Shown: positions 22,149 to 55,212 of the stretch, piece by piece | How the letters are laid out: the number at the start of each line of letters is the position of its first letter | Position numbering within the stretch: position 1 is the stretch's first letter | From: Bryum argenteum | Taxonomy: Eukaryota; Streptophyta; Bryopsida; Bryales; Bryaceae | Assembly (NCBI GenBank): GCA_037043015.1 | Contig: CM073321.1 | Location: 43,544,420-43,608,419, forward strand | Reading direction: 5' to 3' | Length of the DNA: 64,000 nucleotides | The notes under the pieces: generated by a model | The model's input: only the letters and a program-made list of their open reading frames with translations | Database searches by the model: none | What the model was told of the DNA's origin: nothing | Program-made: the position numbers and the translations under genes

Positions 22149-22151
<3 letters not shown>

Positions 22152-22203: not shown

Positions 22204-22208
<5 letters not shown>

Positions 22209-25459: not shown

Positions 25460-25550
25460 ACGTGGCATTGTAGTGGTCCGAGTTCGATTCTCCTCGGCCT
25501 CGTTTGAGCGTTGCACTGCGTCTTAATGCAGCTATCCTGAGCTATACAAA
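25460..25550 (+). repeat. tRNA/SINE-like module in the left arm of C
   Basis: GAGTTCGATTCTC at 25480-25492 fits a Pol III B box (GGTTCGANTCC). It is followed by CCTCGTTTGAGCGTTGC and GCAGCTATCCTGAGCTA. The same word order occurs at 39911-39970 in B at a similar distance from the terminus. There is no foldable complete tRNA. Confidence 0.55.
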
Positions 25551-25947
25551 TACTGGACTAGAGCCCCTACCAACATTGGCAAGATTCAATTACTCCAATG
25601 GAAAATAAAAATACCTTCTGAAACTTTTAGTCTACATTGTGTGTAAAACTTAAACATTTACCTACACCGATGCATTGAAATTGGAGTTAAAGAAGTTACA
25701 TCAAAACTAGGGTTGACATCACCATTAAAGGCAAGCATGGCTTTCGATTACATTGTATTGAGTTACTTAAAGTAATACTTGAAGCACTTAATGTAAGTTA
25801 AGCTATAAGTAATAATCACAAGAATTAAAAATATAAAACCATATATATTGAAAAACACGTATAGATAGTATATAAGTAATAGATCAAGGTAAACTACAAA
25901 TGTATGGCGCTAGCATATCCAGTACCTATCGGAAAACAAATCGCACA

Positions 25948-28900: not shown

Positions 28901-31900
28901 GTCGAATTTTTGCCGCAAATGGCTTTAATTTCTGGTTTGATCGCATTATCCATATCACTCCATACTCCACGTCCTGTTTGTTTCTCCTTTGGGACGGTGG
29001 CGTAGTAATTTGTTTCAGCGTCATCTGATACCTTTGCCAATCTCCTCTGTACAAAATATAAAAAGAATTTATACGGTAGAAAAAACCAAATATAAAGAAT
29101 CACAATACAAACACATTCTACCCAACTTACCGCATATAAGAACTTTACAAAAACGTCAGGTGTTACAGGATACCAAGTTTCTTTTTTTGCTTTGGCGTTC
29201 TTGCATATTCTGTAATCCTCGGGAGATATCAGATCCTTGAAGTCCTCAGGCTTTAATTTACCGAACTTCCTCATGCGCTGCAGTTTTGAACACAACTCGT
29301 CTTCGACATGGTCATGTTTGGTAGACCTGCCAAGCGAAATCAAATATGAGCAACATTGAAGTTAAAGAAAATATGAATAAATAAATTTGGAAAATTATGA
29401 AAATTACGCACCAATTTATGTCGTTCATAGCGTCAAGAAGGAGGTTGCTCTCTCCTCGAGCATCAAGAACGATACAGTCCACAGATATGTACCATGAGGG
29501 TTCCATCTTATGGTACGACTCTATATGTCGCATCGACGCCGTAAGACGGTGGTTACCTTCGTACACGTAGAAGTACTTGTCACTCAGGTGTTGAAGATCT
29601 GGATCAGACTGCAGCGTCTTCTCAAACTCTTCATTAGCAGATTTCCATAGAGGATTTGTCGACACTGCATCTTCAGCATCAACCATTTTCTCTCTCCCTT
29701 TCCTATCGAAGGGAAAAACGTACATGATCCGGTTGCCCTCGCGATAGCCTTAGTTGAACTCATTCTCCAATTTTCTGACGTCTTGTTCGGAGATAGGTCG
29801 AACCTTCGGATAACAAACAAGGCGACACAATGGAATCATCATGCGAGATTTCTTAACAGGTTTGAAACGCAACCTGTTGATGATCGCGATTGAATCACTC
29901 TTGTGAATTATTCGCATCTCGTTTGCACTCCAGTCTGAGTCTTTGTTTTGGAGGTGAGGGGGTATGTGAACAATTCTGACGTTGACACCTCCCGGCAATG
30001 GAGTGTCATCATCTTCAGAATGGGAGACGTCTCCATCGTGATCGAGCGTGGGTTGAGGTGGACAGTCAGTTTCCATTGGACTTTCCTCCAAAACTCCTTT
30101 GCCCAAGTCTTGAGCACTTCTGCCACTGTTATGTAAGAGTTCATTTTCATCCAGAGATCGAGTTGGTCAAGAATGAAGCGGAGGTGGTGTGGCTTCCTCA
30201 TCTTGGTCAGATTGGACTTGAGCTATGTTCATCTAACAATCCAAAAACCAAAATACAACAGAGCACATAAAGAATAAGATGACATCAAAATAACAATTAG
30301 ATAAAGAAAATACTTTAAAACCTTTTTATAATTAAGTATATGATAAACATAATTATCATATAATCGATAGATACAATTAAGGAGATTGCAACTTTGCGGC
30401 AAGTCGCGGAGAACGTCTGGTTGCAAGTCTGGCTAATTCTATCTCTTGGATACGACGAGCTTTGGCCTCATTCTTCTTAAGTCGCATGTTAACGGCGTGT
30501 GCAACCCGGTCAATGAAAACACGTGAAGTGTGACGGACAGGTGAGGCAAGGGGCGGAGTTTCAGGAACCGAAAACAATGGTATTACTAAACGCCGGGACT
30601 TCACTACAGCCAAGACATGATCTCTCAGAGTAGACAAGTCACTATCAGCAACGAATTCCTCTCCACCAACAACTTCATGTCGCATTAACGCATCCTGCTA
30701 TACAACTCAAAACCATCAACAAACAAATAAATGTAAATTACAGAACGACAAACAAGTTAAAAAAAACATTTCAAATACAACCATTGACCATTGTATAAAA
30801 AATTAATCACATCAAGTCAAAGTTGATGGCCTAATGCAAGTTCAAGAAGCACAAGCACTCCGAGTTTGAGCCCCTTGACGTCGTCGGAGGCTCAATTCTC
30901 AAGAACAACGGCAAGGCATTTGATACCCCTACCACGCAGTTGCAAGCAAACGAAGACCTCGAGGTGGCCACAGTGAGTGTGCACCCGGCCCACGATGCTC
31001 ACGAGGACCACAGCCAAGAAGGGAGGATTCAATAATTCACCAAAATGATGATCAATCTCAAATTCAAAATGCAAAAAAAAAAAACGGATTTTTATAAGCC
31101 CCCCAGCATTTCGTCGACAAAAGCCTGCCAAGCAGCTGGTACTTTCAAGCAACAACATGCCGCCCACATCATAAGAGCCCAGATCATAAGTCCCTGCGGG
31201 CAAGTTTCGAGCACCTGGATGGTGCATGCAGCTTACAATTCACGAGCTGAGGGAGGGCATTGAGCCCCCTGCCACGCCATTGCAAGCACATGGCAATCTC
31301 GAGGTGGCCACAGCGAGTGAGCACCCGGCCCACGATGCTCACGAGGACCACAACCAAGTAGGGAGGATTCAAAAATTCAGCCAAATGATGATCAATCTCA
31401 AATTCAAAATGCAAAAAAGAAAAAGATTGTTTGAGGCCCCCCGAGCTTTTCGTCTACGAAAGCCTCCTAAGCAGCTGGTACTATCAAGCAACGAGATGCC
31501 CCCGACATCATAACAGCCTAGATCATCACTCCTTTTGGGCAAGTTTCGAGCGCCAAGCAGCTGGTAATTTGAAGCAACAACATGTTCCCGATATTATAAA
31601 AGCCCAGATCATAAGTCCCTTCGGGCAAGTTTCGAGCACCTGGATGGTGCATGCAGCTTACAATTCACGAGCTGAGGGAGGGCATTGAGCCCCCTGCCAC
31701 GCCATTGCAAGCACATGGCAATCTCGAGGTGGCCACAGCGAGTGAGCACACGGCCCACGATGCTCACGAGGACCACAACCAAGTAGGGAGGATTCAAAAA
31801 TTCAGCCAAATGATGATCAATCTCAAATTCTAAATGCAGAAAAAAATAAGGATTGTTCGAGGCCCCCTCAGCATTTCGTCGTCGAAAGCCTGCCAAGCAG

Positions 31901-34303
31901 TTGGTACTTTCAAGCAACAAGATGCCCCCGACATCATAAGAGCCCAGATCATCAGTCCTTTTGGGCAAGTTTGGAGCGCCAAGCAGCTGGTAATTTGAAG
32001 CAACAACATGTTCCCGATATTATAAAAGCCCAGATCATAAGTCCCTTCGGGCAAGTTTCGAGCACCTGGATGGTGCATGCAGCTTACAATTCACGAGCTG
32101 AGGGAGGGCATTGAGCCCCCTGCCACGCCATTGCAAGCACATGGCAATCTCGAGGTGGCCACAGCCAGTGAGCACCCGGCCCACGATGCTCACGAGGACC
32201 ACAACCAAGTAGGGAGTATTCAAAAATTCAGCCAAATGATGATCAATCTCAAATTCAAAATGCAAAAAAGAAAAAGATTGTTCGAGGCCCCCCGAGCTTT
32301 TCGTCGACAAAAGCCTCCTAAGCAGCTGGTACTTTCAAGCAACAAGATGCCCCCGACATCATAAGAGCCTAGATCATCAGTCCTTTTGGGCAAGTTTGGA
32401 GCGCCAAGCAGCTGGTAATTTGAAGCAACAACATGTTCCCGATATTATAAAAGCCCAGATCATAAGTCCCTTCGGGCAAGTTTCGAGCACCTGGATGGTG
32501 CATGCAGCTTACAATTCACGAGCTGAGGGAGGGCATTGAGCCCCCTGCCACGCCATTGCAAGCAAATGGCAATCTCGAGGTGGCCACAGCGAGTGAGCAC
32601 CCGGCCCACGATGCTCACGAGGACCACAACCAAGTAGGGAGGATTCAAAAATTCAGCCAAGTGATGATCAATCTCAAATTCAAAATGCAAAAAAGAAAAA
32701 GATTGTTCGAGGCCCCCCCCCAGCATTTCGTTGTCGAAAGCCTCCTAAGCAGCTGGTACTTTCAAGCAAGAAGATGCCCCCGACATCATAAGAGCCTAGA
32801 TCATCAGTCCCTTCGGGCAAGTTTCGAGCGCCAAGGAGCTGGTAATTTCTTGCAACAAGACGCCCCCGACATCACAAGAGCCGAGATCATCAGTCCTTTC
32901 GAGCAAGTTTCGAGCACCTGGATGGTGCATGCAGCTTACAATTCACGAGCTGAGGGAGGGCATTGAGCCCCTTGCCACGCCATTGCAAGCAAATGGCAAT
33001 CTCGAGGTGGCCACAGCGAGTGAGCACCCGGCCCACGATGCTCACGAGGACCACAACCAAGTAGGGAGGATTCAAAAATTCAGCCAAATGATGATCAATC
33101 TCAAATTCTAAATGCAGAAAAAAATAAGGATTGTTCGAGGCCCCCTCAGCATTTCGTCGTCGAAAGCCTGCCAAGCAGTTGGTACTTTCAAGCAAGAAGA
33201 TGCCCCCGACATCATAAGAGCCCAGATCATCAGTCCTTTTGGGCAAGTTTCGAGCGCCAAGCAGCTGGTAATTTGAAGCAACAACATGTTCCCGATATTA
33301 TAAAAGCCCAGATCATAAGTCCCTTCGGGCAAGTTTCGAGCACCTGGATGGTGCATGCAGCTTACAATTCACGAGCTGAGGGAGGGCATTGAGCCCCCTG
33401 CCACGCCATTGCAAGCAAATGGCAATCTCGAGGTGGCCACAGCGAGTGAGCACACGGCCCACGATGCTCACGAGGACCACAACCAAGTAGGGAGGATTCA
33501 AAAATTCAGCCAAATGATGATCAATCTCAAATTCAAAATGCAAAAATGAAAAAGATTGTTCGAGGCCCCCGAGCTTTTCGTCGACAAAAGCCTCCTAAGC
33601 AGCTGGTACTTTCAAGCAACAAGATGCCCCCGACATCATAAGAGCCTAGATCATCAGTCCTTTTGGGCAAGTTTGGAGCGCCAAGCAGCTGGTAATTTGA
33701 AGCAACAACATGGTCCCGATATTATAAGAGCCCAGATCATAAGTCCCTTCGGGCAAGTTTCGAGCACCTGGATGGTGCATGCAGCTTACAATTCAAGAGC
33801 TGAGGGAGGGCATTGACCCCCGTGCCACGCCGTTGCAAGCAAATGGCAATCTCAAGGTGGCCACTGCGAGTGTGCACCCCGCCCACGATGCTGACAAGGA
33901 CTACAGCCAAGCAGGAAGGATTCAAAAACTCATGTGCAAAAACCTAGGCCGGAATCCATGTGCCCTGTTTTGAAATCCTACAAGATCTCTCCTACAGCGT
34001 TCTAGATAGAAGGGAAGAACATTTGCTGATTGAGTACAAGGAGAGGATTGAGTAGATGATGAAGCAGGTGATTCTTACCTTGAAGCCCCTCGAAAACCAC
34101 GGCTTCTTTTCAGCACGAGTCTTCATTTTCTTTCCTGGAGCGTATCGAAGAGCATATTCCCTGTAAAATTCAGAAAAGAGGCTTGATTCTGAATTGGAAC
34201 TCACATTCTCCAACTCCTTCTCGACATCGTCATCTTCTCCCTGCATTGTCATCTCCTCTTCTTGCCGCGTTGTCATCTCCTCTTGTGCGCCCAAGTTCGC
34301 CAT
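25948..34303 (-). pseudogene. ParB-like plus DNA methylase-like protein, copy in element C, decayed
   Basis: A multi-exon minus-strand gene. A likely first exon (34079-34303, MANLGAQEEMTTRQEEE, donor GTAAGA) is separated by a tandem-repeat intron from exons at 30377-30685 and 29400-30230. The latter carry the ParB-like region (KVRPISEQDVRKLENEF and YEGNHRLTASMRHIE). Middle exons of unknown function follow at 29110-29330, 28860-29050, 28560-28770, 28225-28450 and 27340-28140. The C-terminal exons show DLIFADAPENLP (27160-27180), GGIVFDWSASTG (26545-26575) and ACARSNRHLIAMEPDEEIF (26390-26460). The last exon (25948-26172) ends EHFNGSTPSA. Breaks: an in-frame TAA after NEFN near 29749, an in-frame TGA near 26956 (V*DWW where B has VHEWW), and a frameshift near 28920. 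Exon limits are estimates from splice-like sites and comparison with B. Likely role: a DNA-binding or modification-related accessory protein of the transposon. Confidence 0.65.
30826..33960. repeat. Tandem array, 425-bp unit, about seven copies (element C)
   Basis: The word ATGCAGCTTACAATTCACGA starts at 31226, 31651, 32077, 32502, 32929 and 33355. A variant starts at 33779, so the period is 424-427 bp. A diverged partial copy precedes it from about 30826. Short frames on both strands recur in each unit, and I treat them as by-products of the repeat. The array lies between the presumed first exon (34079-34303) and the exon at 30377-30685 of the ParB-methylase-like gene, hence probably in an intron. 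Copies are very similar to one another, suggesting recent amplification or homogenisation. Confidence 0.92.
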
Positions 34304-39237: not shown

Positions 39238-39247
39238 GCATTAGAAC
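39238..39247. repeat. Target-site duplication of element B, left copy
   Basis: GCATTAGAAC here is repeated exactly at 55203-55212. The preceding base is C on both sides, so 11 bp is possible; 10 bp makes the two termini symmetrical. Confidence 0.88.
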
Positions 39248-39315
39248 GGGGAATGTAGAGGCGTGAGCGTAGAGCGTAGAGCGTAGAGCGGTGAGCGGTG
39301 AGCGTAGAGCGGTGA
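39248..39315. repeat. Left terminus of element B
   Basis: After GGGGAATGTAGAGGCGT come seven heptads: GAGCGTA three times, GAGCGGT twice, GAGCGTA, GAGCGGT. Then follows GACGGGA and a T-rich stretch. The heptads are candidate transposase-binding sites. Confidence 0.85.
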
Positions 39316-40276
39316 CGGGACAATTTTGACTATTTTTTAACAATTTTTTTTCAAAGTAAAGTACCCTATTACCACTTAATTTTTTACTGTACTATTTTAA
39401 AATGTCTATTTTTAGGGGTTATGGTCCCTAATTCCGTGGTGTTGGGTCTACTTTAAATGTGGGTCCCACCTTGCAAGAATATTTCATTTGTATTATCTTG
39501 AAGATTTTATGTGAATATATTGAAAGTAGGGCTAATGTCATCATATTGATGAACGTGTGAAATGGAGGCATGACGATTTAAAGGTTATATTGAACATATG
39601 ATTTAGGTTATTATTAAACTTGTTTTTGGATTTACGGTCTAGGGATAAAGTAGGGCTGACGTCATCATGGCGAAAGCAAAGAAATCCCTCTAGATCTATA
39701 CTTCATCCTTGGATAGTTGCCTCTTTGTGTAACGCCACCGCTCCCACGATCCCGGCAAGGAATATTGCGCATGTTGGTAATCGTCTCCGATAAAGGAAAA
39801 ATATAAATGGCAATGGAATATATAATCCAAATATCGATAATAGAAACTGTCTCATCGTTTACTCTAATGTAGTGGATGGATTAGACATAACGATGGCATA
39901 GCGAAGGTCCGGGTTCGATCCCCATCGGGCTCGTTTGAGCATCGCGTAGCGTAAAAGGCAGCTATCCTGAGCTAATAGGGACAAAATATAAGCTCCTGTA
40001 GACATTGACAAATTTAGGGAAGCATTGACCTATAAGAATCGGTATACATTTTAGAATTTTAAATGTCATTTAAAATAGTGGGGTATAACAAGTGAATCCA
40101 ACATATAGATTGAGATGTAATTGGACTTTGAAAATTTTCAATACGGTTTAAGGCAAAGACACATATATGTAAAATAATGTAAAACATATGAAAAGTAATG
40201 ACTTGTAGGGTAAGGCAACTCATGAGAGTTGGCCCTACATAGTCATCTCTGAAATAGAAAACAAAAAATAAACACA
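39316..40276. other. Left arm of element B, non-coding
   Basis: AT-rich, matching the left arm of C in scattered words (CCCTATTACCACT, AGGGCTGACGTCATCAT against AGGGCTGACATCATCAA). It contains the tRNA/SINE-like module and ends at the 3' end of the ParB-methylase-like gene. Confidence 0.6.
39865..39975 (+). repeat. tRNA/SINE-like module in the left arm of B
   Basis: TAGTGGATGGATTAGACA (A-box-like) is followed by GGTCCGGGTTCGATCCCC with a near-perfect B box at 39911-39922. Then come GGGCTCGTTTGAGCATCG and GCAGCTATCCTGAGCTAA. The same series occurs in C at 25460-25550. It is not a complete cloverleaf, so it is a tRNA-derived or SINE-like relic and not a tRNA gene. Confidence 0.6.
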
Positions 40277-40561
40277 CTACGATGAAGGTGAAGCACCATT
40301 AAAATGGTGGTCACACTGATCTGCCTCTAAATCAATGTATCTAAGCACACCAGCTCTAAAGCGTCTTCGTGAAGCATTCGGTACAGGAGGAGTTGGAGCC
40401 GCGACGAAAGCTCGAGCTACATGCTCCGCATAAGAGGGTAGAACATGTGTGGGAGGTGGGCTATTGATGAGATGAGCGTTTTGGGTCAAGTGTCTTGAGA
40501 TGCCTGCATAGCTAAATAATCATAACCAGTCAATGTTCTGATTGTAGTACAGACTTTGAAA

Positions 40562-41600
40562 TCACAAAAAGTCAATGAATTGAATTGAGTACACACCAAT
40601 ATAAGTGCGAGGTTTCTTCAGATACGGTTCATCGGAGTCGTAATCGTCACCAGAGGCTGATTCCCCACTCTCTTCTTCCAACGGTTTAGGGTGTTTGAAG
40701 GTCGCCAAAAGCCCATCGAAGATCTCCTCATCTGCCTCAAAAGCAATGAGGTGACGATTGGAGCGTGCACATGCGATGATTGAAGCACCTGCACATTTGA
40801 AAATCCACATGAGTATTGAAAATATGAGTATGCAATGACTTATAAATGGGTAATCAAATTTTTACCCGCTTAGCGGCCGAAGTCAAACACGATTCCCCCA
40901 TCGTCCGTAAGGCAATCCACGGCTAATCGCAAAAACGACGGATCCTTCTCTCGCGCGCGCCACGGCTTCCCGTTAGTGCGGTAGGTAATGGAACTCGCGT
41001 CAAGAAAGTTATCGACCATGTCATCCTCGTCGGGTATGATCGCGACTCTGCGTATGCTTGCGCCCGTCGTATGTTGAACATCTTCACGAAGTCCTTCCGA
41101 GCATAGACCTTGATGGTAAAGTTATGGGTCCGCAATAAGCAATTCGATATTCGTAAAACGTAATGTTGAATTGAGAGATAAAATCAAGTGCGAAATTCGA
41201 AGAATACCTCTCTTGCGTTAGCGCCTGTGTCTAACCAAAGGAAGGGGTTATAGGCCCACCACTCATGCACAAGCCGGAAATTGTAAGTACTAGCACGATC
41301 GTGTAGGATGCGGTCAATTTTGACGTCCTTGGGGTGCATAATTAGGATAGTCCCAAGGTCCGTCAAATGGTATGAGGCAAAGACAAACACGGACTCAAGT
41401 AATACGAAGCACGCTTGTTCCAGAGAGGAGGCGCATCCGGCGAGACATTAAGCACGGGCAAGTTCTCGGGAACATCCGCAAAGATAAGGTCAATCCCGGG
41501 ATGTTTGGGCACATCTCCATCTTTTCGCAAGGGTAGTCCCTACCCTTTCCAATCTGTGAATTAGACACAAAGTAATCGAAACCAATAAAATGAGGATAGA
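40562..41600 (-). other. Exons encoding the beta-class-like DNA methyltransferase fold (element B)
   Basis: In gene order: PGIDLIFADVPENLP (motif IV position, normally D-L-I-x-x-D-P-P-Y), FVFASYHLTDLGTILIMHPK (typical strand-helix after motif IV), and EWWAYNPF. These are followed by KDPSFLRLAVDCLTDDGGIV, FDFG (motif I, normally D-P-F-x-G-x-G), and ACARSNRHLIAFEADEEIFD (typical R-x-I-x-x-E-x-D-E). Motif IV before motif I is the beta-class order. The acidic tail after it is element-specific. The key catalytic D-P-P-Y is changed to D-V-P-E (D-A-P-E in C), so N-methylation activity is doubtful even in an undamaged gene. Confidence 0.6.
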
Positions 41601-43903
41601 GTAACTTCAAGACAAAAACGATTCATAGTTAGAGAGGATTTACCTTCTTGATGTGTTGAACCATAGCCGAATAGCATCAACCCGGCCCAAGAAGACCCTT
41701 TGTAGACTCGCTCAACCAAGGCCGTTGTGTCTCCTTTCTCAAGGAACATAGGGAGCGTCACCGTTATAGGAGAAGAGGAACTACTACCCACATTTTTGGG
41801 AAAAACTATGGGACGCATGGGTCCATTAGATTGCGTCGGTCCATGTGAGAGGAGACTCACGAGGGGCCGACGACGAAGGAGGAGTAGATCTCACATTCGA
41901 AACCCCACCCTCGAGGCTTGTATCCACCTCGACCATGCCTTTCAGGCAGAACTGCCTGCCTATCCGAGGCAACAGGACCTCTTACACCACACCCAGCGTT
42001 GTTGACAACCGTCCCCTGCGAAGCTTGTGTCATTTCAACCTCCCTTTGAACTGCAATGCATACAAAAGCGCACATGTTACATAAATAACAAAGTACAACT
42101 AGAGTAACATACATACATTTCAATCTACAACACCTGCAAGCTCATCGAGAATGGGAACATCTCCATGCCCTCCCTCGTCGTCTTCGTCATTGTCTTCGTG
42201 CTCTTCCACCTCCTCTTCTTGTTCTTCCTCTTCTGGCTCAGGGGTATGCTCATTTCTGCGACGTTTCCGGCTGCCACCTGCAGTACCTCTATCTTTTGGT
42301 GCAGCGAGGGGGGGTGGTGGTGGAGCGCCTGGAAGCATGTAGAAGTCGTCGTCATCATCATCAACTCAGAGTGCTACAGAGCGGCGTCGACCGATTCCGC
42401 TATCAGACAAGATGCTTCTCTTCGTTGTGAACATGGTGGGTTTGAGACTCTAGAAACCAACCACCAGTCAACAGTAAAGCCATCTTGAACCGTTGCCTCT
42501 GATCATTCGAAAAAATCGACCTCGGTTTCTTCTTCAAGCAAGGGATTTGGAATTCAGACGGAATGCCCACTGGAGCGAGACCACCCTTAGCAACGAGCTC
42601 GTGTTTGAGATACCTACAAAGAGTAAAAACAATTAGAAACACTTTTCTGAATATAATATTCAGAAAATTGACAATACAGAACGGCGTGGTCAAACCTGAA
42701 CATCAATCGCTTCTTAGTTTGAGCACCTCCGCCAATCTTGTCGATGTGGGAGCCTTTAATGACCTTAGGGCTGGCTTTGGGCCCCAAATAAGCATCGAAT
42801 GCCTTATCCCATAAAAGAAGACGCCATTTTTCGACGTACTCTTCGGGCATCAAAATGGCGTCAATGTTCGGGATGTGGGGATTCTCTTGTTTGAAGAACT
42901 TGTCCACCTCCTCCTTCAGATACGTCGCTAACTGTGGACAACAAGTGAAGTTAGTAAAAATCAGGAAAAATGGGTATGGTCATATCGGTGTAACGAATGT
43001 GATTGAGTGCATATGTAGTACCTGAGACCACAAGGCAGCACGGGCAAGCCATGCCTCCAACACCCTGTCTTTCATCTCGACCGGGTCCGGAAAGCGAACA
43101 CTCCGTCGGAATGCCGGAGTGTTGTTCCACCAACGAAGCCACATGGTTTTCACTTCCTTCGAAACGTTGGTGGTGGCGACCTTCTGGAGGCGCTCCAGAG
43201 ACATCTCGGGATCCTTTTGACGACTATAATGAAGATTGATCTACATCAAATTACAAGAAAGAGATTAAGAAATATAACAGAGGGATGTGGAGAACGAAAT
43301 TGAGAGATAGAAGTAAGATAGGTCGAGTGAATTCATACCTCTTGCTCAAAAGCTTTTCCTAACTCGGGATTAGCAATGGCAAGCATTTTGTCGAAATCTT
43401 TCGTCGGATTCGTTTAACCTCGCTTTGAGAGCATCGTCCATGGCCGTCCAAACTCCTTGCGCAGATCCTCTCTCGTCGACGAGAGTGTCCTCGTAGTATT
43501 GGGCTTGGGCTTCGTCGGCGACTTTAGCACATTGCCTCGGACAATCAAAGAACTCATGTTGGATAAAGTAAAAACTCAATTTAAAACGAATTCATACAAA
43601 AGATATGCAAAATGACCCACCGCATAGAGGAACTTTATGAAGACGTCTTTAGTAACGAAGTACCAAGTCCGCCTCGACTTATCTTTTGCGGTGTAACAGT
43701 ACTTCCAGTCCTCAGCAGAGATGAGGGGTTTCCATTCTTCTAGTGGCATCTTGCCAAACTTGCGCATGCGTTGCAACCTCGATGGCAGGCTATCTTCAAC
43801 ATGATCATGCTCTGTGGACCTGTTGATGAGGTTAGTACAAAATATATGTAAATTGTGTAAAAAATACTACAGCCAAGGAAAAATAATACAAAATCGAACT
43901 CAC

Positions 43904-44949
43904 CAGTTGATATCATTCATCGCGTCGATAAGTACTTTGTATTCTGCACGTCCGTCAAGGACAATGCAGTCGACAAAGAAATACCAATCAGGGTCATCTC
44001 TGCGCATTTGCTCAATGTACCGCATCCAAGCAGTAACGCGATGATTCCCCTCGTAGACGTAGAAGTATTTGCCACTGAATTGGCAAAGGTCCGGATCGGC
44101 TTGCAATGAGACTTCGAAGCGATCATTGGCCGCTTTCCAATGAGGGTTATTCCAAACGGCATCATCGTCCTTTACCAACCGCTGCTTACCGTTCTTGCTG
44201 AAGGGGGAAACATAAAGAACACGATCGCCCTCTCTGTATCCTTTGACAAACTCGTTTGCCAACTTGCAAACATCTGTTTCAATGATAGGACGTACCTTGG
44301 GGTAACACGAGAGGCGACAGAGGGGAATTCGAAGTCGAGATTTTTCAACTGGTTTGATACGCAATCTGGATATAGTGTTGATTGAGTTTCCCTTTTGTTG
44401 AGCGCGTAACTCGTCAGCGCTCCACATAGGATCCATCTCTGCCAAATGACTTGGCATTTCAACAACCCCAACCTCCAAAGTATCTGGGAGAGAAGGAGAT
44501 TCCCTCGCAGATCTTGCAGTTGGAGACGCAGCTACCGTAAATGTGTTCATCTCGTCAACTGCATCAATGTCGCGCAAACACTGTGTACCCCGAACAATCT
44601 CTTGAATGTCATCGTCATCGTCTTCGGCAATTGGAGATTGAGATATGAGTTGGCGGCTTGGGGAGATAGTCAGTGGCAAACATGACTGCTGTTCCGCGTC
44701 ACAACCGTCAGTTGTTGCCATGTTGGTGGGATCGGTCTCAGATGACAGCGGGGCAATCGAGAGAGGGGTCACAGGAGCAGTCAATGTTGATTGAACGTAG
44801 TCGGTGTTAGTATCTATAGTAGCAGCTGGAAGTGCTCGAACCACCGTGCGTTTAACCTCTACATCTAAGACTCTAGTTCGCGTGCAAGACGTAGCACTAT
44901 CGCTCTCAGATTCCACAGAAGAGAACTCCGGCTCGATGTCAATCGACTC
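43904..44949 (-). other. Exon encoding the ParB/sulfiredoxin-like domain (element B)
   Basis: A 348-codon uninterrupted exon between TTGTAG|GAGTCG and CAACTG|GTGAGT; the donor splits the Trp codon after NDIN. The first half is Ser/Thr/acidic linker. From about residue 195 comes IKPVEKSRLRIPLCRLSCYP, KVRPIIETDVCKLANEF, and then KYFYVYEGNHRVTAWMRYIE, DWYFFVDCIVLDG and VLIDAMNDINW. The order 'short basic strand, KVRP-I---V--L, then Y-V-EGNHR--A' follows the ParB/Srx fold, whose signature is a G-x-H/N-R motif before a helix. In C the same exon has EGNHRLTASM. The fold assignment is by motif and should be confirmed by profile or structure prediction. Confidence 0.6.
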
Positions 44950-45234
44950 CTACAAAAGCAAACACAACAAAAATTCAGAGCGTTAGTATATTCACAAGGA
45001 GATGAGAGAAAAGAGATTAATGTTAATATTGAAATGATAAGAGGTGTAGATATGAATCACCTAATATTCTCCTACTTTCAGATACAAACGCTATACGTGG
45101 ATATATATTTATCTTCCACATATTAACCAGAGAGAGGATAAGGTAGTTAGGGTCAATGTCCCTGCGAATTCTGACTACACATTCGAACAAGGATCCACGA
45201 GCAGAATCCATGCCTGCAGATCACTTTCATTTCA

Positions 45235-46720
45235 ATCAGATGGCAAGGAAGTTTCGTTGACGAAACTGCTCCAGGTGACCTGCTTCACGAGCCCCGCTAC
45301 TACAGCGCTCCCTAAAAGTCTACAAAGCTGCGAATTGCGACATGCATTCATACCGTCCATCCCAGCCACCTTCTTGAGGGCTCCGAGCAAGGTACATTCG
45401 TTGACGAAGGTGCTCGAGGTGAGATGGTTCAAGAGGCCGTTACAACATGCAGACAGCGCTCGCTGAGAGTACGATTATGCGAATTCGGCGAAGGGAAGAC
45501 AACACTCTACCAGCCAGCTTCTAATAGGCTCCGAGCCAGGGAGTTTCGTTGACGAAAGTGCTCATCATGAGCCGGTTCACTAAGCAGGAAGCTCACGAGA
45601 CAGCGCCGCCGTAGTCTACGTCTTCGGCATGCATTCAAACGAGAGAATCCAGCCAACATCTACAAGTCTCCAAGCAGATCTTGCACACCCTACTCACAAT
45701 TACCGAACGTGGTTTCCTCGAACATATTCTAAGCACACCGATTACAAGGATTAGAATTGCGGAGCAAGGTAGTTTCGTTGACGAAACTGCTCGAGGTGAC
45801 CTGCTTCGCGAGGCCGCTACTACACAGCGCTCCCTAAAAGTCTACGAGGCTGCGAACTGCGACGTACATTCATACCGTCCATCCCAGCCACCTTCTTGAA
45901 GGCACCGAGCAAGGTACATTCGTTGACGAAGGTGCTCGAGGTGAGATGGTTCAAGAAGCCGTTACAACATGCAGACAGCGCTCGCTGAGAGTATGCAAAT
46001 GCAAATTCAGCGGAGGAAAAACAAAACTCTCCCGGCCAGTTTCTAATAGGCTCCGAGCCAGGGAGTTTCGTTGACGAAAGTGCTCATCATGAGCCGGTTC
46101 ACAAGGCAGGAAGCTCAGAGACAGCGCCCGCCCAGAGTCTACGAATTCGGCATGCATTCATACGAGAGGGTCCAGCCATCATCTACAAGTCTCCAAGCAG
46201 ATCTTGCACACCCTACTCACAATTACAGAACGTGGTTTCCACGAACATATTCTAAGCACACCGATCACAAGGATTAGAATTGCGGAGCAAGGTAGTTTCG
46301 TTGACGAAACTGCTCGAGGTGACCTGCTTCACGAGCCCGCTACTACACAGCGCTCCCTAAAAGTCTACGAGGCTGCAAATTGCGACGTACATTCATACCG
46401 TCCATCTCAGCCACTTTATTAAGGGCTCCGAGCAAGGTACATTCGTTGACGAAGGTGCTCGAGGTGAGATGGTTCAAGAGGCCGTTACAACATGCAGACA
46501 GCGCTCGCTGAGAGTACGAGAATGCGAATTCGGCAATGGAAATACAAAACTCTCCCAGCCAGCTTCTAATAGGCTCCGAGCCAGGGAGTTTCGTTGACGA
46601 GAGTGCTCATCATGAGCCGGTTCACAAGGCAAGAAGCTCACGAGAAAAAGCCCGCTCAAAGTCTACGAATTCGGCATGCATTCGAACGAGAGGATCCAGC
46701 CAACATCTACAGGGTTCCGA
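45235..46720. repeat. Tandem array, about 520-bp unit, three copies (element B)
   Basis: The word GCAAGG-(T)A-GTTTCGTTGACGAAACTGCTC recurs near 45243, 45764 and 46287, a period of 520-523 bp. Within each unit two more hairpin variants occur: GAGTTTCGTTGACGAAAGTG near 45541, 46063 and 46586, and ACATTCGTTGACGAAGGTGC near 45388, 45912 and 46440. The array occupies the same place as the unrelated 425-bp array in C, in the presumed 5' intron of the ParB-methylase-like gene. Confidence 0.88.
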
Positions 46721-48059
46721 CTAGATGTAGCACACTCTCATCACAATTACGAAGAGAGGATACTGCGAGCAGATCTTTCACATTCTATGATGAGAATATC
46801 CTAAAGCGAGCAAAGGAGTTTCAGTGTCAGGCAGGGCAACGATGCTTCGAATGCGGGCATGAATTTAAACGAGGCTCCAGCGAGCTTCTACAGTGCGCAA
46901 GGGTCATGCTCGAGGTCTTAGTCACTATGAATTCGGGCTTCGCAATCAAACGAGGATCCACGAGCATATTACGGGCAAGGTAGTTTCAGTTCCAAGCAAG
47001 GCAACCAGGCTGCAACTTCTGGCACGCATTCAATCGAGGATTCAGTCGTCTTCCACATGGCTCAACGGTCAAGCTCAGAGTCAATGACGCTGCAAATTTG
47101 TAGTACACAACTCGGCCAAGCCTCGATCTTTCAATCATCCAAATCACAGCGGGCAAGGCAATTTCGTTGACGAAAGTCTCGACGTGAGCAGCTTCACGAG
47201 TCTGCTACTACCCGGACAACAGCTCTCGCTGATAGTCCACGAGGCTGTGAATTCGGCAAAGCATTCAATCGTCCCTCTGATGCAGGTTCTACTAGGCTCG
47301 GAGCCATGTACTTTCGCTGTAGATAGTGCTCGAGGTAAGCAGGTTCCCAGAAAGCAAGCCCACGCTCCATTCTCATGCTGAAAGTAAAGAGGTTGCGAAT
47401 CTGGGCTAATATTCAAACGATGCTCCAAGCTGGCTTCTATACGGCTTCGAGCATATCTTTCACATTCAAATGACAACACATCTTTCGCATTCAAACGAGG
47501 TTCCAGCCGGCGTTGACAGGGCTTCGAGCAGATCTTGCACACTCTACTCACATGAACAAAACAAGGATTCGGGGAGCATAATTCAAGCACACCGATCTGA
47601 AGTATTAAAATTCTTGAGCAAGGATGTTTCGTTGACGAATGTGCCGAGGTGAAGTGGTCCACCGATCTCCAACAGCCTGTCAACGAGGATGGGAATTCTG
47701 CCCAGCTCGATGCTCATGCTGGAAGTGCACGAGGCTGCGAGTTCGGCCATGCTTTCCATCGTCCCCCCACGAACCTACTACGTGGCTTCAAGCAAGGTAG
47801 TTTCGCGGACGAAACAACTCAAACAGAGCACATTCACGAGGCAGCTGGTTCATTCACGAGGCAGCTGGTTCACGCTGAAAAAGATGCTGCGAATTCGGTC
47901 ATGCCTTCAAACTACCTTCCCAGCCAGCTTGTACATGGCTACAAGCGAGTAGATTCGCATTCTAAGCACAAAACAGAACGAGGATTCCGCGAGCATGTTC
48001 TAACCACACCAATCTCGCGAGCAAATCCGTCAATGTCAATGCTCATGCAAAAAGTCTAC
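46721..48059. repeat. Degenerate continuation of the element B repeat region
   Basis: Diverged pieces of the 520-bp unit continue (TTTCGTTGACGAAAGTCTCG near 47163, TTTCGTTGACGAATGTGC near 47628, TTTCGCGGACGAAAC near 47802), with recurring AAACGAGGATTC- and CATTCAAACGAGG-like words. At about 47831-47877 a 21-bp segment starting ACATTCACGAGGC is duplicated. Open frames here (for example 47649-48476) are repeat-derived and I do not call them genes. Confidence 0.65.
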
Positions 48060-48155
48060 GAGGCTGCGAGGCTACGAGGCTCTGAGGCTGCGATGCTGCG
48101 AGGCTGCGAGGCTGCGAGTCTACGAGGCTGCGAGGCTGCGAGTCTACGAGGCTGC
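48060..48155. repeat. Octamer repeat (GAGGCTGC)12
   Basis: Twelve 8-bp units of GAGGCTGC with variants GAGGCTAC, GAGGCTCT, GATGCTGC and GAGTCTAC. It closes the repeat region just downstream of the presumed first exon of the ParB-methylase-like gene. Confidence 0.9.
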
Positions 48156-48454
48156 ATTCAAACGAGGATACCAGCCGGCTTCTACTGGGCGCAATTGTCG
48201 AGCTCAAATTCATTGACGCTTCAAATTCGGCCATGCACTGACATTCTGAGAAGAAAAATCATCACATACCTGCTCAGGAAAGCATATGCCCTTCGACGCG
48301 ATTGTCTGAACTTTGGTGACCTCGAACTTCCCAAAGTGGTTTTTCCAAGACATCCTTCGCCAACCGAGAGAGATCAAAAACGTGGAGGGGCGCTTACATC
48401 AACGACTTTGCTTGGGTCCTGCATTGCCGTTATCTCCCCTCCGCAGCTCGCCAT

Positions 48455-49615
48455 CTTCGATTCGCGCTGCAACTGAAAGAAAGAAAGCTTAATTCCTCTC
48501 TCTGTGATAGTACTTCGTTCTAGCAATGTATCTCTCCCACCCGCACCAAACCAGATCTCCTTCGCAGTTCTCGGTTTTCAACATGACCTCCGATCATGAG
48601 CCTCGGCCACCGAGGATATCTGGGAACCTTATCACGGAAGTCACGCTCATCTCTGCTACATGCCCAGCCCGATATTACACCATCGGCACTTTCGAGATAA
48701 GGCACCTCGGTGGAGTCAGCCCGCTTATGCGGCATCAGCTGGTTATGCGGCAGACAGCCCGCCATCTGCGCTGCGCTGGCATTTAAGATCTCAAAACATC
48801 CGATCCTACGCGGGGGGTCTACTATCTGCGGTCAACGATCTGATCGGGAGGGTGATGTAACTTTGGTGCCCGTCTCCGATGACTTTGCATGAAATCCGGC
48901 CTCTGCTGGCAGTTCAGTCCAGATCCTCCACCGAATTGCTAGAATGCCGTGTGCTAAAGGTATAAGCTTCTAGCTACTAAGTCAAACAATTTTGGCTTCT
49001 ACGTGCAAACCGATATCCCAGAGACGGCTTCTGTGCGCCAACACTCTACATAGAAGCTACTATCAGTTCACTTCTACTTTATTCGTCCAAAACATACGCA
49101 GCTTTATAATACCAGCGCGAATGATAAACAGCCTTACTCGATAGCTCACGATGGAAGCTTTTTTGTTCGCACTTATATCCTTTAATTCTACATGACTTCA
49201 TGACTTTGATGATGAGAGAGTTTGGTACGTGAATGTCGCTCAATGCGACTATCCGCAATGCCGCCGCCGTCTTATGCTACCCGGGCGTCCGCAGACGCAG
49301 ATGGACGACAGTGCTAGATGGGGAGTTTGCCGTATAACATAATAAAATGATGATTTACTGCGACATGAGTGGTTTCGGTAACGTATATAACAATATAGAT
49401 AAGATATCACTATTTTTATTTTTCTTCTTATATAGCACCGAATATGAGTTTAGAATGTTCTCTACTAAAAATGTCATCTAAGAATTGTTGGGCTATGGTC
49501 TTTATTCATGGGCGACCGTCTCACATAAATTGGACTTTTTCCACAATATATCCAATTTCTGTTCTAATACATGTAGAATAAAAGGCTTCAATGGGTCTAT
49601 ATCCTAGTCGCACGT
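48455..49615. other. Element B stretch without a recognised gene
   Basis: It probably holds the promoter of the ParB-methylase-like gene (before 48454 on the minus strand) and the 3' flank of the small gene. Short frames at 48520-48892 overlap on both strands and show no domain. 49300-49600 is AT-rich. Confidence 0.45.
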
Positions 49616-50415
49616 TAACTATCAGCATCTGCTTCGTCCACGTCCTCACGGTCGGCCCAGGGGAACTCATTATTGTCTATCAACCAACATTGAATGAAGC
49701 CATTAGGGTGTTCATAAATCATAAACTCATGTCGACATCCTAGATCTACCTCCTCTCTAAGGTTTGGGAATTGTACCGTAAACGTTCGGGTCTAATTCCA
49801 TTTCGTCTTTTTCTTCATGGCCATCCACTGCATTCCGTTCTTCCACTTGACATTCTGGCTTGCTCCATGTGTTTCGGCTTCAAATTGCTGAGGATGAACA
49901 CCAAAGATGTCATCAACGAATGTCTCCATATCATCCCACTGAACAAACCCATTAAAACATTTAAGACTGTACATCACATCAACTTTAACACATTGTGCAA
50001 ACCCAGACTCCCATTTATACTTACTACTTTTTCGAACTCTTTATCCACTCCATCACGTTCAATTTCTTGAGATCCACACTCCCGCTGCGATTTCTTACTA
50101 GCATCTACCTCCTTCACTCCTTCGTTCCAATCAAGCCGTTCTTCTTCGTCTTCACCCATTTGTATTCTCGTGAGCATCGTCCAAGTACAATGTTCGAATC
50201 TTTACATTCCTTCTAAACCTCCCGGGAAGGAACTAATCAATCGTTTCATCTATGTCTTGCATATGATCGTCATCAGACACATCCGGCGCATCTTTCTTCC
50301 GCATGGCACTCCGCCGCAATGCTTTCGATCCAGAAAACTTTATGCCACCTCTTTTCTTCTTCTTCCCGCGTACTCCATCCTTCCCTCTCTCGACTTGACT
50401 ACTATCACCCTCCAT
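49616..50415 (-). pseudogene. Small basic/acidic protein of element B
   Basis: The start MEGDSSQVERGKDGVRGKKK lies at 50415, followed by KKRGGIKFSGSKALRRSAMR, the motif shared with the C copy (KKRGGTRFSNTKAHKQSALR). An acidic part follows (DVSDDDHMQDIDETID) with an early in-frame TAG. Beyond it EDEEERLDWNEGVKEVDA and DKEFEKV run to a GTAAGT donor near 50010, matching DFEKQ before the donor in C. The last part reads YEHPNGFIQCWLIDNNEFPW and ADREDVDEADADS to a TAA at 49616. Highly charged, no known domain; basic patch then acidic patches, plausibly nuclear. It is divergent from the transposase and so possibly co-regulated with it. Confidence 0.55.
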
Positions 50416-51040
50416 TGCAAACAATCACAAACTCCTCGCTCTTAAGACACGATATTCTCAAAAGCGTGACTCTGAGAATACAACTATATCATACAACAGA
50501 AACAAAGAGGAATATCTCTTGTAACCCGATGACTTTATACTCTTTGGATGCGCCGTTCTTCCTAAACCCTAACTACTCTAAACGCGTAACCCATTAACAC
50601 TCATAGCCACTTTCGCACACCGATGCAAGAGACAAAATCTTTTACCCGATTCCGTGTCGACACTATATACTAATCTATTTTCAAGTAGCCTTTCGGCGCA
50701 CTTATTCTCTCGACACACGCGGCCGCCGTCTCGAATTCAAATCTCAATTCCTTAATTAGTTTTACCATCTTAATACTTGTGCTTAATTAATGCGCGTGTT
50801 CAATATTTAAACAAAGTGGTTGTAAGATACGTTTTAAATACGTATACGTTGTGGAGTTCGTGCGTCCAATATTAGCCTCACATCCAACCTCTTCGAATAT
50901 CTTTCACTAGATAATTTTGCAACTCTTTTTACATTTACTACTTACAAGAGCACATTATTTTAGTACATAAACATCGCCGCAGGTACTCATTATCTCTTTT
51001 GTACCACTCGTTTGTCCATTCTCTTGTACTAGCTTCAATC
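50416..51040. promoter_or_regulatory. Intergenic region between divergent element B genes
   Basis: It separates the small gene (minus) from the transposase (plus). It is AT-rich after 50740; no motif can be assigned safely. By position it should hold both promoters. Confidence 0.4.
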
Positions 51041-54000
51041 ATGGCTTCCTCCTCTCAGAAACCTTGCCCGGATTTGATCGAGATTAAGTCAGTTGCCTCT
51101 GATGTCCCCGCTTGTCCTCCTCCTCGCCCTCATGGCGTGGCTGAAGTCATGGCTTCCACCACGGAGCCTCCTTCTCTGGATTTGATCGAAATTAAGTCAG
51201 TCGCCTCTGATGTCCCTCTCTGTCTTCCTCCTTGCCCTGATGGTGTGGCTGAAGTAACCTCTTCTTGGCTTGCAATTCGCTTTGGCTATGATGTATCCAC
51301 ATTGTGGTTAGAAACCGACGTTCTTGATCCTCAAACTTATCATGTCCTGTACTCCACGGTTGTAGAACCAGTCGTCTTAGATAATAACGCTACCATGTGG
51401 AAGCTCAAGTCAGGAAAGTATCGCCTATACGGTTTGATGAGTCGGCTATGAACGCATCCACTCAACTTCTAACACCTCGTAGCTCCTCCACGATCTCTAA
51501 CGTTGGTCCCCTCTTTGCTCGTGTCAAGATCGAACCAGGCAAGCGTGTTAGTATCGATATATCAGATTCATCCGATGACGAACGAAAGCCATCGGTTCCA
51601 CCCCGTCGTCCTTCAGCCAAGCTTCCATCCATCTCCTCTATCTCTCAGAACTCTTTTCAATCAACGCCCTCTTCGTTAGCCTCTCCCACACCATCCTCTC
51701 AAACAGGAAAACCCAAAAACATTCTTCCATGTCTACGCAAACTTGGTAGCATGCCCGGTAGCAAGAATATACTCAAGAAACTAGATTTCAATTCCATCCC
51801 TACTCACATTGTATCCTTTCTGCCTCCATCTTTTAATGGAGATGCCCTATATGTCCTCCCCCCGACACTTCCTTCCGCTGTACTCAAGAATGCAAGATCA
51901 ATGGAAGGGATGGACAAACGGTATGACGGACATGTCTGGACTAGGACGATGACAACTAACATCAGCAACACCCTGGGCTTGTCATTTTGATATTCAAATT
52001 GCGTGGGTCATCTCCAATGCCACAATTACAAGTGTCCTTTCTTGGAACGGCCGGATCGTGCGACGGGAGTCAATGAGGTGGAGTTTGAAGGTATCACCAA
52101 AGAACCTTTCTCAGTAAGTGAACCGCCTCCCTCATCGTCCACCCTAGTCTGTAAGATTTGCAGAGAACCTCCAGTCTGCGTTGCTTTGTGTCCTGCCAAA
52201 ATCTTCTACGTCTTTGGAGATGATATTCAAGAGCGTGCATGTGTGCATATCGGTACCCACGAGCACCCTGTCAAAGTCGGAGACTATAGATGCGCACGCG
52301 TCAAATGATAGATGAGTTAATCGAACGACATGTTGACCGCAACCCCCAAGCAACAATTTCGAAAATTGTCTTGGAGACGAGCAAGGACGTAGTAGGTAAC
52401 ATTCTTCTACGCGATGAAGATGACCCCAAATCCGGACACCTAACTCTTGAAGAACTTGAGCCAGTTTTTGATCGATGTAAACTCTTGAACTCTCCAAGCT
52501 TGCGGAATCGTATCTATTCTTTCAAGTACATGCGCAGATTTGGCATCCTTGATGGCATCACGAAGCTAAGAGGACTCAGCAACTGGGCGTACGTGCAACG
52601 CAACATGTTCCCCGGCCAAGGGACGATTACGATAAAGTCTTCATTTTTAAGATGTCGAAGTTGGACCCGGTAGTGGTGTCGACCTTGTCCGCCGGATGCA
52701 ACCTGGAGGCGACCTCTCCAATGCATGGATGATGTTTGACCATGTCAAACGAGTGAAGCCATGGACTATCATGGCGTGCCATGTGTACGACCCTAATTAC
52801 CAGCGCATTCTAACCATTGCATGTTTGATTTTCAATCTGAAGATACTCAAGCTCAACTTGTCTTCTGGAGGAATCTCAACCACGTCATGGCTAGGCACGG
52901 AGTACACAAACCTAAGTTTCAAGGATTTATGGCTGACAGTGCTCAAGCCAAGCGGAACTTGATGCGGATCGTTCGGCTCTGGAGATCCTTCAATTCCCAT
53001 GGAAGACCAAGAACGTACTTGTTACTTTCATTGGACGCAATCATTAGAAACTCATACCAAGAAGTACATCGTCCACGAATTGCAAGATCAACATCGGGTC
53101 CTCTGTAAGCAATACAAGGATGCTCGTTCATCCGATGAAGCTGAGACCCGGTATTTGGCAATCAGAGCGTGGTGGTCATCCTCAAACGCCACCTCCGAAA
53201 ATGGCCTCTACCACCTTGGCCTATGGCTTTTGTATTGGCATCACCGCTATAGACAGTGGGGTGGATTCATGGAACTGGTAAGTAAATGCTTACTACGGTA
53301 ATTTTCAAGTTATAGCAATTTCGATTTTACAATTAAGTCGGGATAACTGTAAATTATTATTTCTTTCCAATAAAAATTAAAATAAAAAAATATCTATTTT
53401 TAGGAGGCAATTTCGTCAACGAAATAGCCTCTTCCTACACTTTGAGCTTGACATCACTATTTATGTACCTGTCAGGAACAAAAATTATCTCCAGAAGAGC
53501 TAGCTGAGATGCCATCCTGCAACCTTGCAGAATCCATTCATAACAAATGGTTGCAAGCTTCGGGAAATAAGGGTGGTGATCTCTATATGGCAGCTGTTCA
53601 TGATTACGTTCGTGCTTTCCTTCAAGTTGTGGGTTACTATCAATACACCAAAGGTGGAGCGGGTGGACATGGTCCGTCTAGGGAGGAACTCCGACTTCGC
53701 AGTGCACAACGCAAGGCTCATAGAACCGGCGATCCATCAGCTCTCAATAAGGCCGTAATAGAGTTCCCGGAGGCTGATATATTTTGTACTCGCGATGCTC
53801 ACTTGGAGGGTGCCGAGATTTTGGTTCGAAGAAACGTAAGCGTGATGTTCCAATCGGAGCGGAAGAGGAAACCCATAGGCCTGACATAGGTTTAGGTGAC
53901 AGCTGTACAAGAGACAAAAGTGAACGAATACTTATGGCATATTGCTCGATTGAAGGAGCCCTCACCCCAAGTCTGTTGGGACAAAGATGCGTGTGAAGAA

Positions 54001-54789
54001 GAAATGCGAGTCTCGTATAGTGCAAAACGGGAAGTCCACACTGCACCAACTTATACCGGAATATGGATGCCTCAAAAAATGGTCACCGCAAGAAGGTGGA
54101 GAAGTTTTATTTTATTTACGACGATATTGAGAGGTGTGTGAAGGGCACTCGTCGGAAGTGGGTGGAGCCGTTCTCTCGAACTGAAGATCAACCCCCAATC
54201 CCAACAATCTGGCCCGTGAAGATAGGGACAAATGTGACACGTTCGGAGATGGAGGTTAGAGAATCTTGGTTTCCGACTCCTCCCTCAGAAGGAGAGACTA
54301 CCACTCAACCGCACTTTCAACAATGCATCTGCGCCACGGGACCTGTCACATATTCCTGTGCCGGAGAATGCAGATGTCTTCCCAAAATCAAGGAAGTCAA
54401 GGAACCTCTGACGCATCTGCAACGTAACTTCTAAGCACATACGGAATATTGATTCCGCCCGTGCGATGCAGGCGAAGATACTAAAGGTCACTATGGTCCC
54501 ATCGCCAGGAATTGGATGCATTATTTCCATGGAGTCAGATTCGCAATCGATTTATCAACTATCAATAGGTGCATTACCAGATTGCACTTGTCCGGTGTTT
54601 AAAAGCACAATTGCAAAATTAGGGCGGAGAGGAGAACCGTATAGACCTTGTAAGCACCTATACTATGTCTTTGTGTTGATATGCAAGTTTGAACCAGATG
54701 TAGACCTCTTCATCCATGCGCCTACCCTAAGTTTCAACGAGGTGAAGATGATCATGGAGAGAGGCATCCTTGAGCTCGCCATAGTTTAG
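51041..54789 (+). pseudogene. Mutator-like transposase of element B, decayed
   Basis: Starts MASSSQKPCPDLIEIKSVAS. An N-terminal segment is duplicated (LIEIKSVASDVP occurs twice, 41 residues apart). In order: WLAIRFGYDVSTLWLETDV; an acidic SDSSDDER linker; GMDKRYDGHVWTRTMTTNIS; a Cys/His cluster (SNCVGHLQCHNYKCPFLE); ACVHIGTHEHPVKVGDYR; the core with TIMACHVYDPNYQRI and GFMADSAQA (second Asp kept); CYFHWTQSLETHTKKYI; an intron 53278-53475; NLAESIHNKWLQAS; and a SWIM finger DCTCPVF...PCKHLYY near 54580-54665. Breaks: a frameshift near 51440, TGA at 51988 (C has CGA), a frameshift near 52305, and a deletion near 52625. About 40 codons present in A are missing near 53885. It would cut and paste the element by binding the termini; this copy cannot. 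Confidence 0.82.
53404..53431. repeat. 28-bp hairpin in the transposase intron (element B)
   Basis: GAGGCAATTTCGT, CA, ACGAAATAGCCTC: 13-bp arms with one mismatch around a two-base loop. The core TTTCGT-2-ACGAAA equals the hairpin core repeated throughout 45235-47650 in the same element. Confidence 0.8.
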
Positions 54790-55130
54790 ATGTCATAGTT
54801 TTGTACACTTTATTCCCTATTTGCCCTTAACCCTATACCGTGTTGTGAACACGTCGTGTGACTCAATCTTGCAATATAGCATTAAAAAATATATATTAGT
54901 ATCTATGTCCACAAAATTGTTTAAGTAATGTCACACCATAAGTGTCTCCATGTCTTTTGAATGTTGTTGAAGTTTGCCAAATTTCAGAACTTTTTCCCTC
55001 ATTTCCACGGGTTTGGGTTCCAAATCCACGGTAATAAGTCAGGAATATTCGAATATTCTCTAGAATATTCTGTATAAATTTAGAATTTTTATATTTTTAG
55101 TAATATTTACCAAAAAAATGTTCTCACCAC
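54790..55130. other. Right arm of element B, non-coding
   Basis: AT-rich 3' flank of the transposase. ATATTCGAATATTCTCTAGA near 55035 resembles ATACAAATATTCTCAAGA in the right arm of A near 22560, so the right arms are related. Confidence 0.6.
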
Positions 55131-55202
55131 CGCTCTCCAATCTGAAATTCTCCGCTCTACGCTCTACGCTCTACGCTCTACGCTCACGCCCAAGTAACGT
55201 CC
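55131..55202. repeat. Right terminus of element B
   Basis: Inverted: GGACGTTACTTGGGCGT, then GAGCGTA four times and GAGCGGA. The target duplication GCATTAGAAC follows at 55203-55212. Confidence 0.85.
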
Positions 55203-55212
55203 GCATTAGAAC
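55203..55212. repeat. Target-site duplication of element B, right copy
   Basis: An exact repeat of 39238-39247. Element C sequence resumes here, 95 bp before the splice donor of its small gene. Confidence 0.88.

Follow-up and report, generated by a model that had tools for sequence, protein, structure and literature searches.

A Bryum argenteum transposon with a predicted ParB-fold and methylase-like accessory gene, divergent from its transposase across palindrome-bearing repeats

The element and its two genes

We analysed a 64,000-nucleotide window of the Bryum argenteum genome (contig CM073321.1, positions 43,544,420 to 43,608,419), which encompasses a complete 15,955-bp DNA element, element B (39248..55202). 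In this element, an accessory gene runs leftward, a transposase gene runs rightward, and tandem repeats lie between the two. The accessory gene is predicted to join a ParB/sulfiredoxin (Srx) fold to an N6/N4-methylase-like fold and is under purifying selection. The interval singled out by an initial annotation of this DNA, 40277..48454, holds the gene but stops between the spacer repeats and the transposase.

Element B has the ends 5'-GGGGAATGTAGAGGCGTGAGCG and 5'-GGACGTTACTTGGGCGTGAGCG, and the homology of a genomic copy, L061, to the window breaks off exactly at 39248. The terminal inverted repeat (TIR) consists of a left arm at 39260..39301 (plus strand), an array of GAGCG 7-mers, and a right arm at 55149..55190 (minus strand); the arms are 42 nt long and 93% complementary, and the outermost bases of the two ends differ from each other. 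A perfect 10-bp target site duplication (TSD), GCATTAGAAC, flanks the element just outside the inverted repeat, at 39238..39247 and 55203..55212 (both plus strand). A TIR search within 38500-49500 found none, because the element extends past that range. The second complete element identified, C3:102656-116909, has similar 7-mer-array ends and a perfect 10-bp duplication, CATTTGCGTA, and for a third (C2) no TSD was found, as its ParB-side end lay outside the stretch examined.

The transposase gene of element B (51041..54789, plus strand, several exons, start codon chosen from the open reading frame (ORF)) is decayed, and a SWIM-like segment near 54580-54666 reaches only E 0.9. Its homologues (n=35) are 38-70% identical, and a D / D / C-x2-H pattern can be read by eye in the conserved transposase columns. 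Hallmarks of Mutator-like elements (MULEs) include TIRs, a target site duplication of 8-11 bp and a MULE transposase domain. That the accessory gene is carried by a transposon, as the initial annotation held, is borne out by the TIR- and TSD-bounded element with its transposase; the more specific Mutator-like assignment rests on the 10-bp duplication, the TIRs and the by-eye motif pattern and is not confirmed by any Pfam model of a transposase.

Genome-wide, among the 150 best matches of each gene, 38 transposase/ParB pairs lie within 15 kb, and 33 of the 38 are head-to-head with the transposase upstream, compared to an average of 0.94 and a maximum of 4 head-to-head pairs in 500 trials of random placement. 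One of the 33 divergent pairs consists of gene B and a neighbouring third transposase, not gene B's own. A transposase homologue and a ParB homologue (P0028, P0057) probably lie on one contig, since the contigs of both have the same length, 674,632. The third transposase copy of the window (56161-59130, plus strand) shows 74-82% identity with the element B transposase in the repeat-family comparison; a further copy lies at 19372-22718 (plus strand), with a TIR-like right end at 22718, and a partner ParB-methylase gene for it was not found in the window.

The accessory gene of element B (40280..44949, minus strand) is a decayed copy of what we call the B type, whose first exon or exons and start codon would lie upstream of 44949; its spliced model has one stop and needs eight frameshifts. 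All five peptides reported by the initial annotation are present letter for letter on the minus strand, within 40718-44298: KVRPIIETDVCKLANEF (44248-44298) and EGNHRVTAWMRYIE (44011-44052) share one 349-codon open exon, and DLIFADVPENLP (41456-41491), GGIVFDFG (40876-40899) and ACARSNRHLIAFEADEEIF (40718-40774) belong to the methylase-like part. On this strand, the gene encodes a ParB/Srx-fold domain (43904..44490), a middle region known from exons only (42409..43819), an acidic linker (42123-42365) and an N6/N4-methylase-like domain (40596..41815).

Element A (24900..30232, minus strand), likewise decayed, has its left terminus at 24900 and a ParB-methylase gene at 25951-30232, with an ATG at 30232; its right end was looked for in the window and not found. 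Copies A and B have the same exon order, with amino-acid identities of 37-67% per exon and 52% over both spliced models, and an intact copy, L064 on contig 11, is predicted to have 10 exons, an ATG start and 1,167 residues, with no stops or frameshifts. The copies were spliced with our own script, which allowed GT-AG or GC-AG introns, so that splicing and start are predictions from homology. Because the second window copy keeps the exon order and an intact copy exists, the five peptides are more than chance, and L064 supports the earlier view that the ParB and methylase exons form one predicted gene. The possibility that the exons come from unrelated genes was rejected, since the copies share exon order and frame.

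The B-type models L061 and L062 carry two frameshifts within the acidic linker, which may be artefacts, the reference itself being decayed. In L061, at 7759-7765, a B-type element ends directly against a truncated A-type gene, indicating that these elements insert into or next to one another. Upstream of two A-type genes lies a short conserved ORF that ends in RRSPRLAAK, with its stop just upstream of the gene (30377..30699, minus strand, in the case of element A; counterpart L064 1711-2127), which could be an upstream exon, an upstream ORF or the end of a third gene.

The initial annotation spoke of two copies, and the gene instead belongs to a large family. Searches of the 258.8-Mb genome (25 contigs) yielded 1,183 first-look candidates for the ParB piece, the best 150 of which were scored (all E < 1e-79), and 2,068 for the methylase piece, of which 146 were scored; by hand count, about 118 of the 150 best ParB matches have no internal stop. 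ParB homologues with E < 1e-20 number 45 in other contigs. A full-length two-copy profile run against 5.8 billion proteins had 7,987 candidates scored and none at E 0.01, because the gene is split by introns; the ParB exon alone found 46 homologues, 40 of which make up alignment A7 (P0043 and P0078-P0082 were left out). The dN/dS ratio is 0.15-0.23 in 6 of 15 copy pairs, those with computable dS, and silent sites are saturated between the A and B types. Such low values indicate that the gene is kept for its protein, that is, under purifying selection. The genome contains telomere-type repeats, with 1,221 overlapping matches for four consecutive units of TTTAGGG and zero for five of TTAGGG, which fits a green plant host, and the plant origin assumed earlier rests on this ground.

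Two folds in the accessory protein

Canonical ParB proteins combine a palindrome-binding helix-turn-helix (HTH), a C-terminal dimer domain and CTP/NTP binding, and act as sliding clamps. The initial annotation had proposed a ParB/Srx domain, to be given up if no significant profile or structural match to that fold appeared. An AlphaFold prediction followed by Foldseek/VIA comparison matched the ParB/Srx fold, which is thereby supported at the level of a predicted model; a first AlphaFold run on two sequences only (pLDDT 39.7) was discarded. The GxxR nucleotide (P) motif, as defined in PMC12704722, is present as GNHR within 44011-44052, each residue being at least 90% conserved across 41 sequences. 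PDB sequence searches gave no convincing match, and viral contigs scanned with profiles A1 and A7 gave none. The sole phage match of the ParB piece, in Phage C72C1 (E 5), falls on a methylase of the C5 cytosine type and was set aside as a chance match.

For the C-terminal part, the evidence supports a predicted beta-class N6/N4 methylase fold with the motif order IV ... X, I. In copy A, this part matches PHROG DNA methyltransferases at 4.3e-5 over motifs X and I. The tblastn search of phage genomes with an intact protein gave 32 weak matches; 20 of them are listed (E 2-4), each with a DNA methylase annotation. We then compared a profile of 14 intact copies, retained from 33 spliced loci (the other 19 had a frameshift or a stop or were incomplete), with three phage N6/N4 methylases using hhalign, the redundancy filter of which used 3 of the 14. 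The alignment extends over 204 columns with a probability of 96.4 and P 1.3e-9, and the highest probability among 30 column-shuffled controls was 2.45. The profile comparison, together with the PHROG and Pfam matches, sustains the methylase domain that the initial annotation had suggested, and the phage or bacterial ancestry it had put forward for the gene appears plausible.

The catalytic motifs are altered in this domain. Motif IV (DVPE at 41456-41491 in copy B) is D[AV]PE, not DPPY, in 25 of 27 motif matches, the remaining two being DALE and DAPQ, and in all 14 intact spliced copies. Motif I, which with motif X falls in 40718-41108 of copy B and for which DPFxGxG is expected, reads D[WF]SxSTG in 12 of the 14 intact copies, SxCTG in L050 and SxNTG in L056, the first G of FxGxG being replaced in all 14. 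METTL14 is a pseudo-enzyme with EPPL, and the changed motifs here resemble such pseudo-enzymes. Because motifs IV and I are both changed, the protein is unlikely to be a working amino-methylase, and the enzymatic action on the modification state that had been envisaged for it is correspondingly unlikely.

Palindromes in the spacer arrays

The spacer between the divergent genes of element B (45194..48180) is made up of ~522-bp tandem units followed by an 8-bp minisatellite (families D5, D7, D10, D12, D17 and D19). The palindrome TTTCGTNNACGAAA, the recurrence of which first showed in the inverted-repeat list of this spacer, occurs here nine times (45252..47814; six exact, three with one mismatch), twice per 522-bp unit and scattered beyond. 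In the spacer of element A (30787..33979), which consists of ~425-bp units, there is one palindrome per unit, seven in all between 31109 and 33589, of which one is exact and the other six have a single mismatch. The whole window contains 17 sites at up to one mismatch versus 0.23 expected, one of them inside the transposase gene of element B (53411). The repeat units of A, B and contig 11 are otherwise unrelated, BLAST detecting the palindrome and chance-sized words of 10-12 nt. TTTCGTNNACGAAA is a short motif multiplied within noncoding tandem repeats of the element. Bacterial parS is TGTTTCACGTGAAACA, and TTTCGTNNACGAAA shares with it a TTTC..GAAA palindrome, a likeness and not a test.

A de novo scan of five arrays ranked the palindrome first, common to four of the five, and 12 resampled sets never rose above two. 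Perfect TTTCGTNNACGAAA sites number 464 genome-wide versus 32 for the reversed control. Among 50 listed sites, which are the first in list order (start of contig 1) and not a random sample, 27 are placed upstream of a ParB or methylase match from the lists, where random placement gives 0.93 on average and at most 5, and the palindromes sit 1.2-3.8 kb upstream of listed ParB matches. Of 30 B-type loci, which share a common descent, 29 contain a palindrome; it is absent from 30 methylase-side loci (101 kb), from 12 transposase loci (41 kb) and from the element termini. Near the 19 kb transposase copy, the window also holds a ~113-bp tandem repeat array (13895-15247) with no TTTCGTNNACGAAA match, perhaps the spacer array of a third subfamily.

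Elsewhere in the window, 1-1006 and 9140-10144, between which two reported 300-base stretches are 100% identical, look like the long terminal repeats of a young Gypsy-type element, and a gag-like ORF lies at 5469-7256 (minus strand). Long minus-strand ORFs at 36835-38811 (MAGTASASAQ...) have no significant Pfam match and are perhaps retroelement-like. The ORF at 59922-60434 has a RING-like cysteine pair, CPICLNN, near its end and no Pfam match, and Rfam at gathering scores found no match in the window.

A proposed role and its alternatives

We tentatively favour a reading in which this is a divergent two-gene TIR transposon whose ParB-pseudo-methylase protein reads palindromes and counters silencing. 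The protein, probably dimeric, would recognise the TTTCGTNNACGAAA palindromes multiplied by tandem duplication between both genes. The ParB fold would provide a nucleotide-switched DNA clamp or loading module, and the pseudo-methylase would serve for binding or as a scaffold and not for catalysis. Occupancy would then mark the element's own copies and keep the two-way promoter region unsilenced, permitting transposase expression. VANC, a protein linked to DUF1985, has a like job in the VANDAL elements of Arabidopsis and is unrelated to the protein proposed here; among the Pfam matches of profile A1 at E up to 10, a VANC-type family is absent, HMMER filters dropping most weak matches. According to PMC5735166 and PMC10398659, VANC binds a motif multiplied in VANDAL noncoding repeats and induces methylation loss. 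VANDAL MULEs are, like the present element, TIR/TSD DNA transposons with a transposase and a further protein, and their noncoding tandem repeats likewise contain many copies of a short motif and differ from one related element to the next. The design matches that of VANDAL and VANC. The simplest reading is that the accessory protein reads the palindrome and protects the element. The two cases differ in that VANC binds YAGTATTAY, whereas here the motif is palindromic, the protein combines a ParB fold with a pseudo-methylase, and binding is putative.

Several observations weigh against this reading. Neither of two 776-aa transposase ORFs has a Pfam MULE match, and Transposase_mut is reached, at E 0.034, in just 1 of 17 transposase homologues. 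Pfam ParBc does not match the accessory protein, in which Pfam lists no HTH or C-terminal dimer domain and no DNA-binding domain is recognised; the Foldseek matches have modest E-values (6e-3 at best, with none reaching 0.001), and the TM-scores of the ParB model are low because of a long insert. The match of copy A to Pfam N6_N4_Mtase, over motifs X and I, is weak (0.0073, below the family cut-off). The palindrome was picked by eye in the B array, the remaining arrays serving as the test; six of the seven A-spacer sites and the contig-11 (C11) palindrome have a mismatch, and array L063 holds only the variant TTGCGTNNACGCAA and misses the exact motif. The C11 and L063 arrays share 24 nt around the site and may be kin rather than independent, and 23 of the 50 listed palindromes have no listed gene nearby. 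The palindrome binder could also be the transposase or a host factor, and the mechanism is a proposal drawn from computation.

A parS-like system in a eukaryotic transposon is conceivable, if doubtful: a nucleotide-switched ParB-fold clamp would load at the element's own palindromes, spread and keep the DNA open, the methylase fold being non-catalytic. It is somewhat unlikely that the protein is instead a transposition cofactor, binding the palindromes and/or the TIR 7-mer arrays and helping the transposase to assemble, count or choose ends, with no silencing role. A helper role of this kind in transposition has been suggested for second MULE proteins, MURB and MutB among them. A cofactor would suit the head-to-head pairing of the two genes within the same TIR-array elements, and ParB proteins are DNA clamps (PMC12704722). 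However, the palindromes lie mostly in the intergenic spacer with none at the termini, and the 12 transposase and 30 methylase-side loci lack them, despite the one site in the window's transposase gene.

Autorepression or copy-number control, in which the protein on palindromic operators of a divergent promoter would keep both genes low, is unlikely. The palindromes are operator-like in placement, lying between divergent genes and 1.2-3.8 kb upstream of listed ParB matches, and the ParB relative KorB is titled a transcriptional repressor, but growing operator arrays would make for costly autorepression, and the known plant precedent is the VANC-type array. Even less probable is that the protein is an active methyltransferase of DNA or RNA whose motifs are unusual and which marks the element with 6mA or 4mC. 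In favour of it, the fold is clearly retained, as is the motif X/I region with its motif I D and an acidic residue past the next strand, and 4mC is reported as a eukaryotic epigenetic mark (PMC8885841). Against it, D[AV]PE for DPPY, together with the replacement of the leading G of FxGxG in all 14 intact copies, recalls pseudo-enzymes such as METTL14. A functionless captured passenger gene of the Pack-MULE kind, for all that gene-fragment capture is frequent in MULEs (PMC6446971), is highly improbable with a dN/dS of 0.15-0.23 among copies, about 118 of 150 best ParB matches free of stops, 45 homologues in other contigs and a conserved pairing with the transposase.

Titles and abstracts on ParB, MULE accessory genes and N6_N4 transposon methylases yielded no record of a ParB-methylase architecture in a eukaryotic transposon, most subscription papers lying outside that coverage. 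To our knowledge, the MULE second genes MURB, MutB and VANB share no domain with the accessory protein; MURB is, as here, an accessory ORF. The N4CMT of bdelloid rotifers is an active host 4mC writer, whereas the protein here is a transposon accessory with a ParB fold. In both cases, a eukaryote has acquired a bacterial-type N6_N4 methylase fold (PMC8885841). MutB and VANB are also accessory ORFs, sometimes antisense to the transposase, and the word methyltransferase is absent from the main text of the source (PMC6446971).

Already described are fusions of both folds in phages (PMC12704722) and transposon methylases of other types (PMC5890265). The former, joining a ParB-CTPase fold to an N6_N4 methylase, resemble the accessory protein in having two folds in one protein, a mobile-element link and GxxR, but are phage or prophage proteins, whereas the gene here is eukaryotic, has multiple exons, and encodes a long middle region and a methylase part whose motifs are degenerate. 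The same 2025 survey gives sulfiredoxin as the commonest eukaryotic ParB-fold protein and used Pfam cut-offs (--cut_ga), of which the accessory family falls short. The transposon methyltransferases, DNMT in Symbiodinium and Klebsormidium retrotransposons and a Dam-like enzyme in DIRS, likewise have a methylase fold borne by a transposon, but are of cytosine-C5 or Dam type in retrotransposons, unlike the degenerate N6/N4 beta-class fold in a DNA transposon seen here.

These findings describe a predicted ParB fold fused to a methylase fold and kept under selection across a very large transposon family. If the protein recognises the palindrome arrays, sequence-specific self-recognition by transposons would exist in plants in no fewer than two independent forms. 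The reason for the diversification of noncoding repeat arrays between related elements would then become testable, and VANC would be joined by a second sequence-specific anti-silencing protein. Should the parS-like version hold, the element would possess a sequence-specific machine against silencing, assembled from prokaryotic parts, that has no relation to VANC and is convergent with it in target design.

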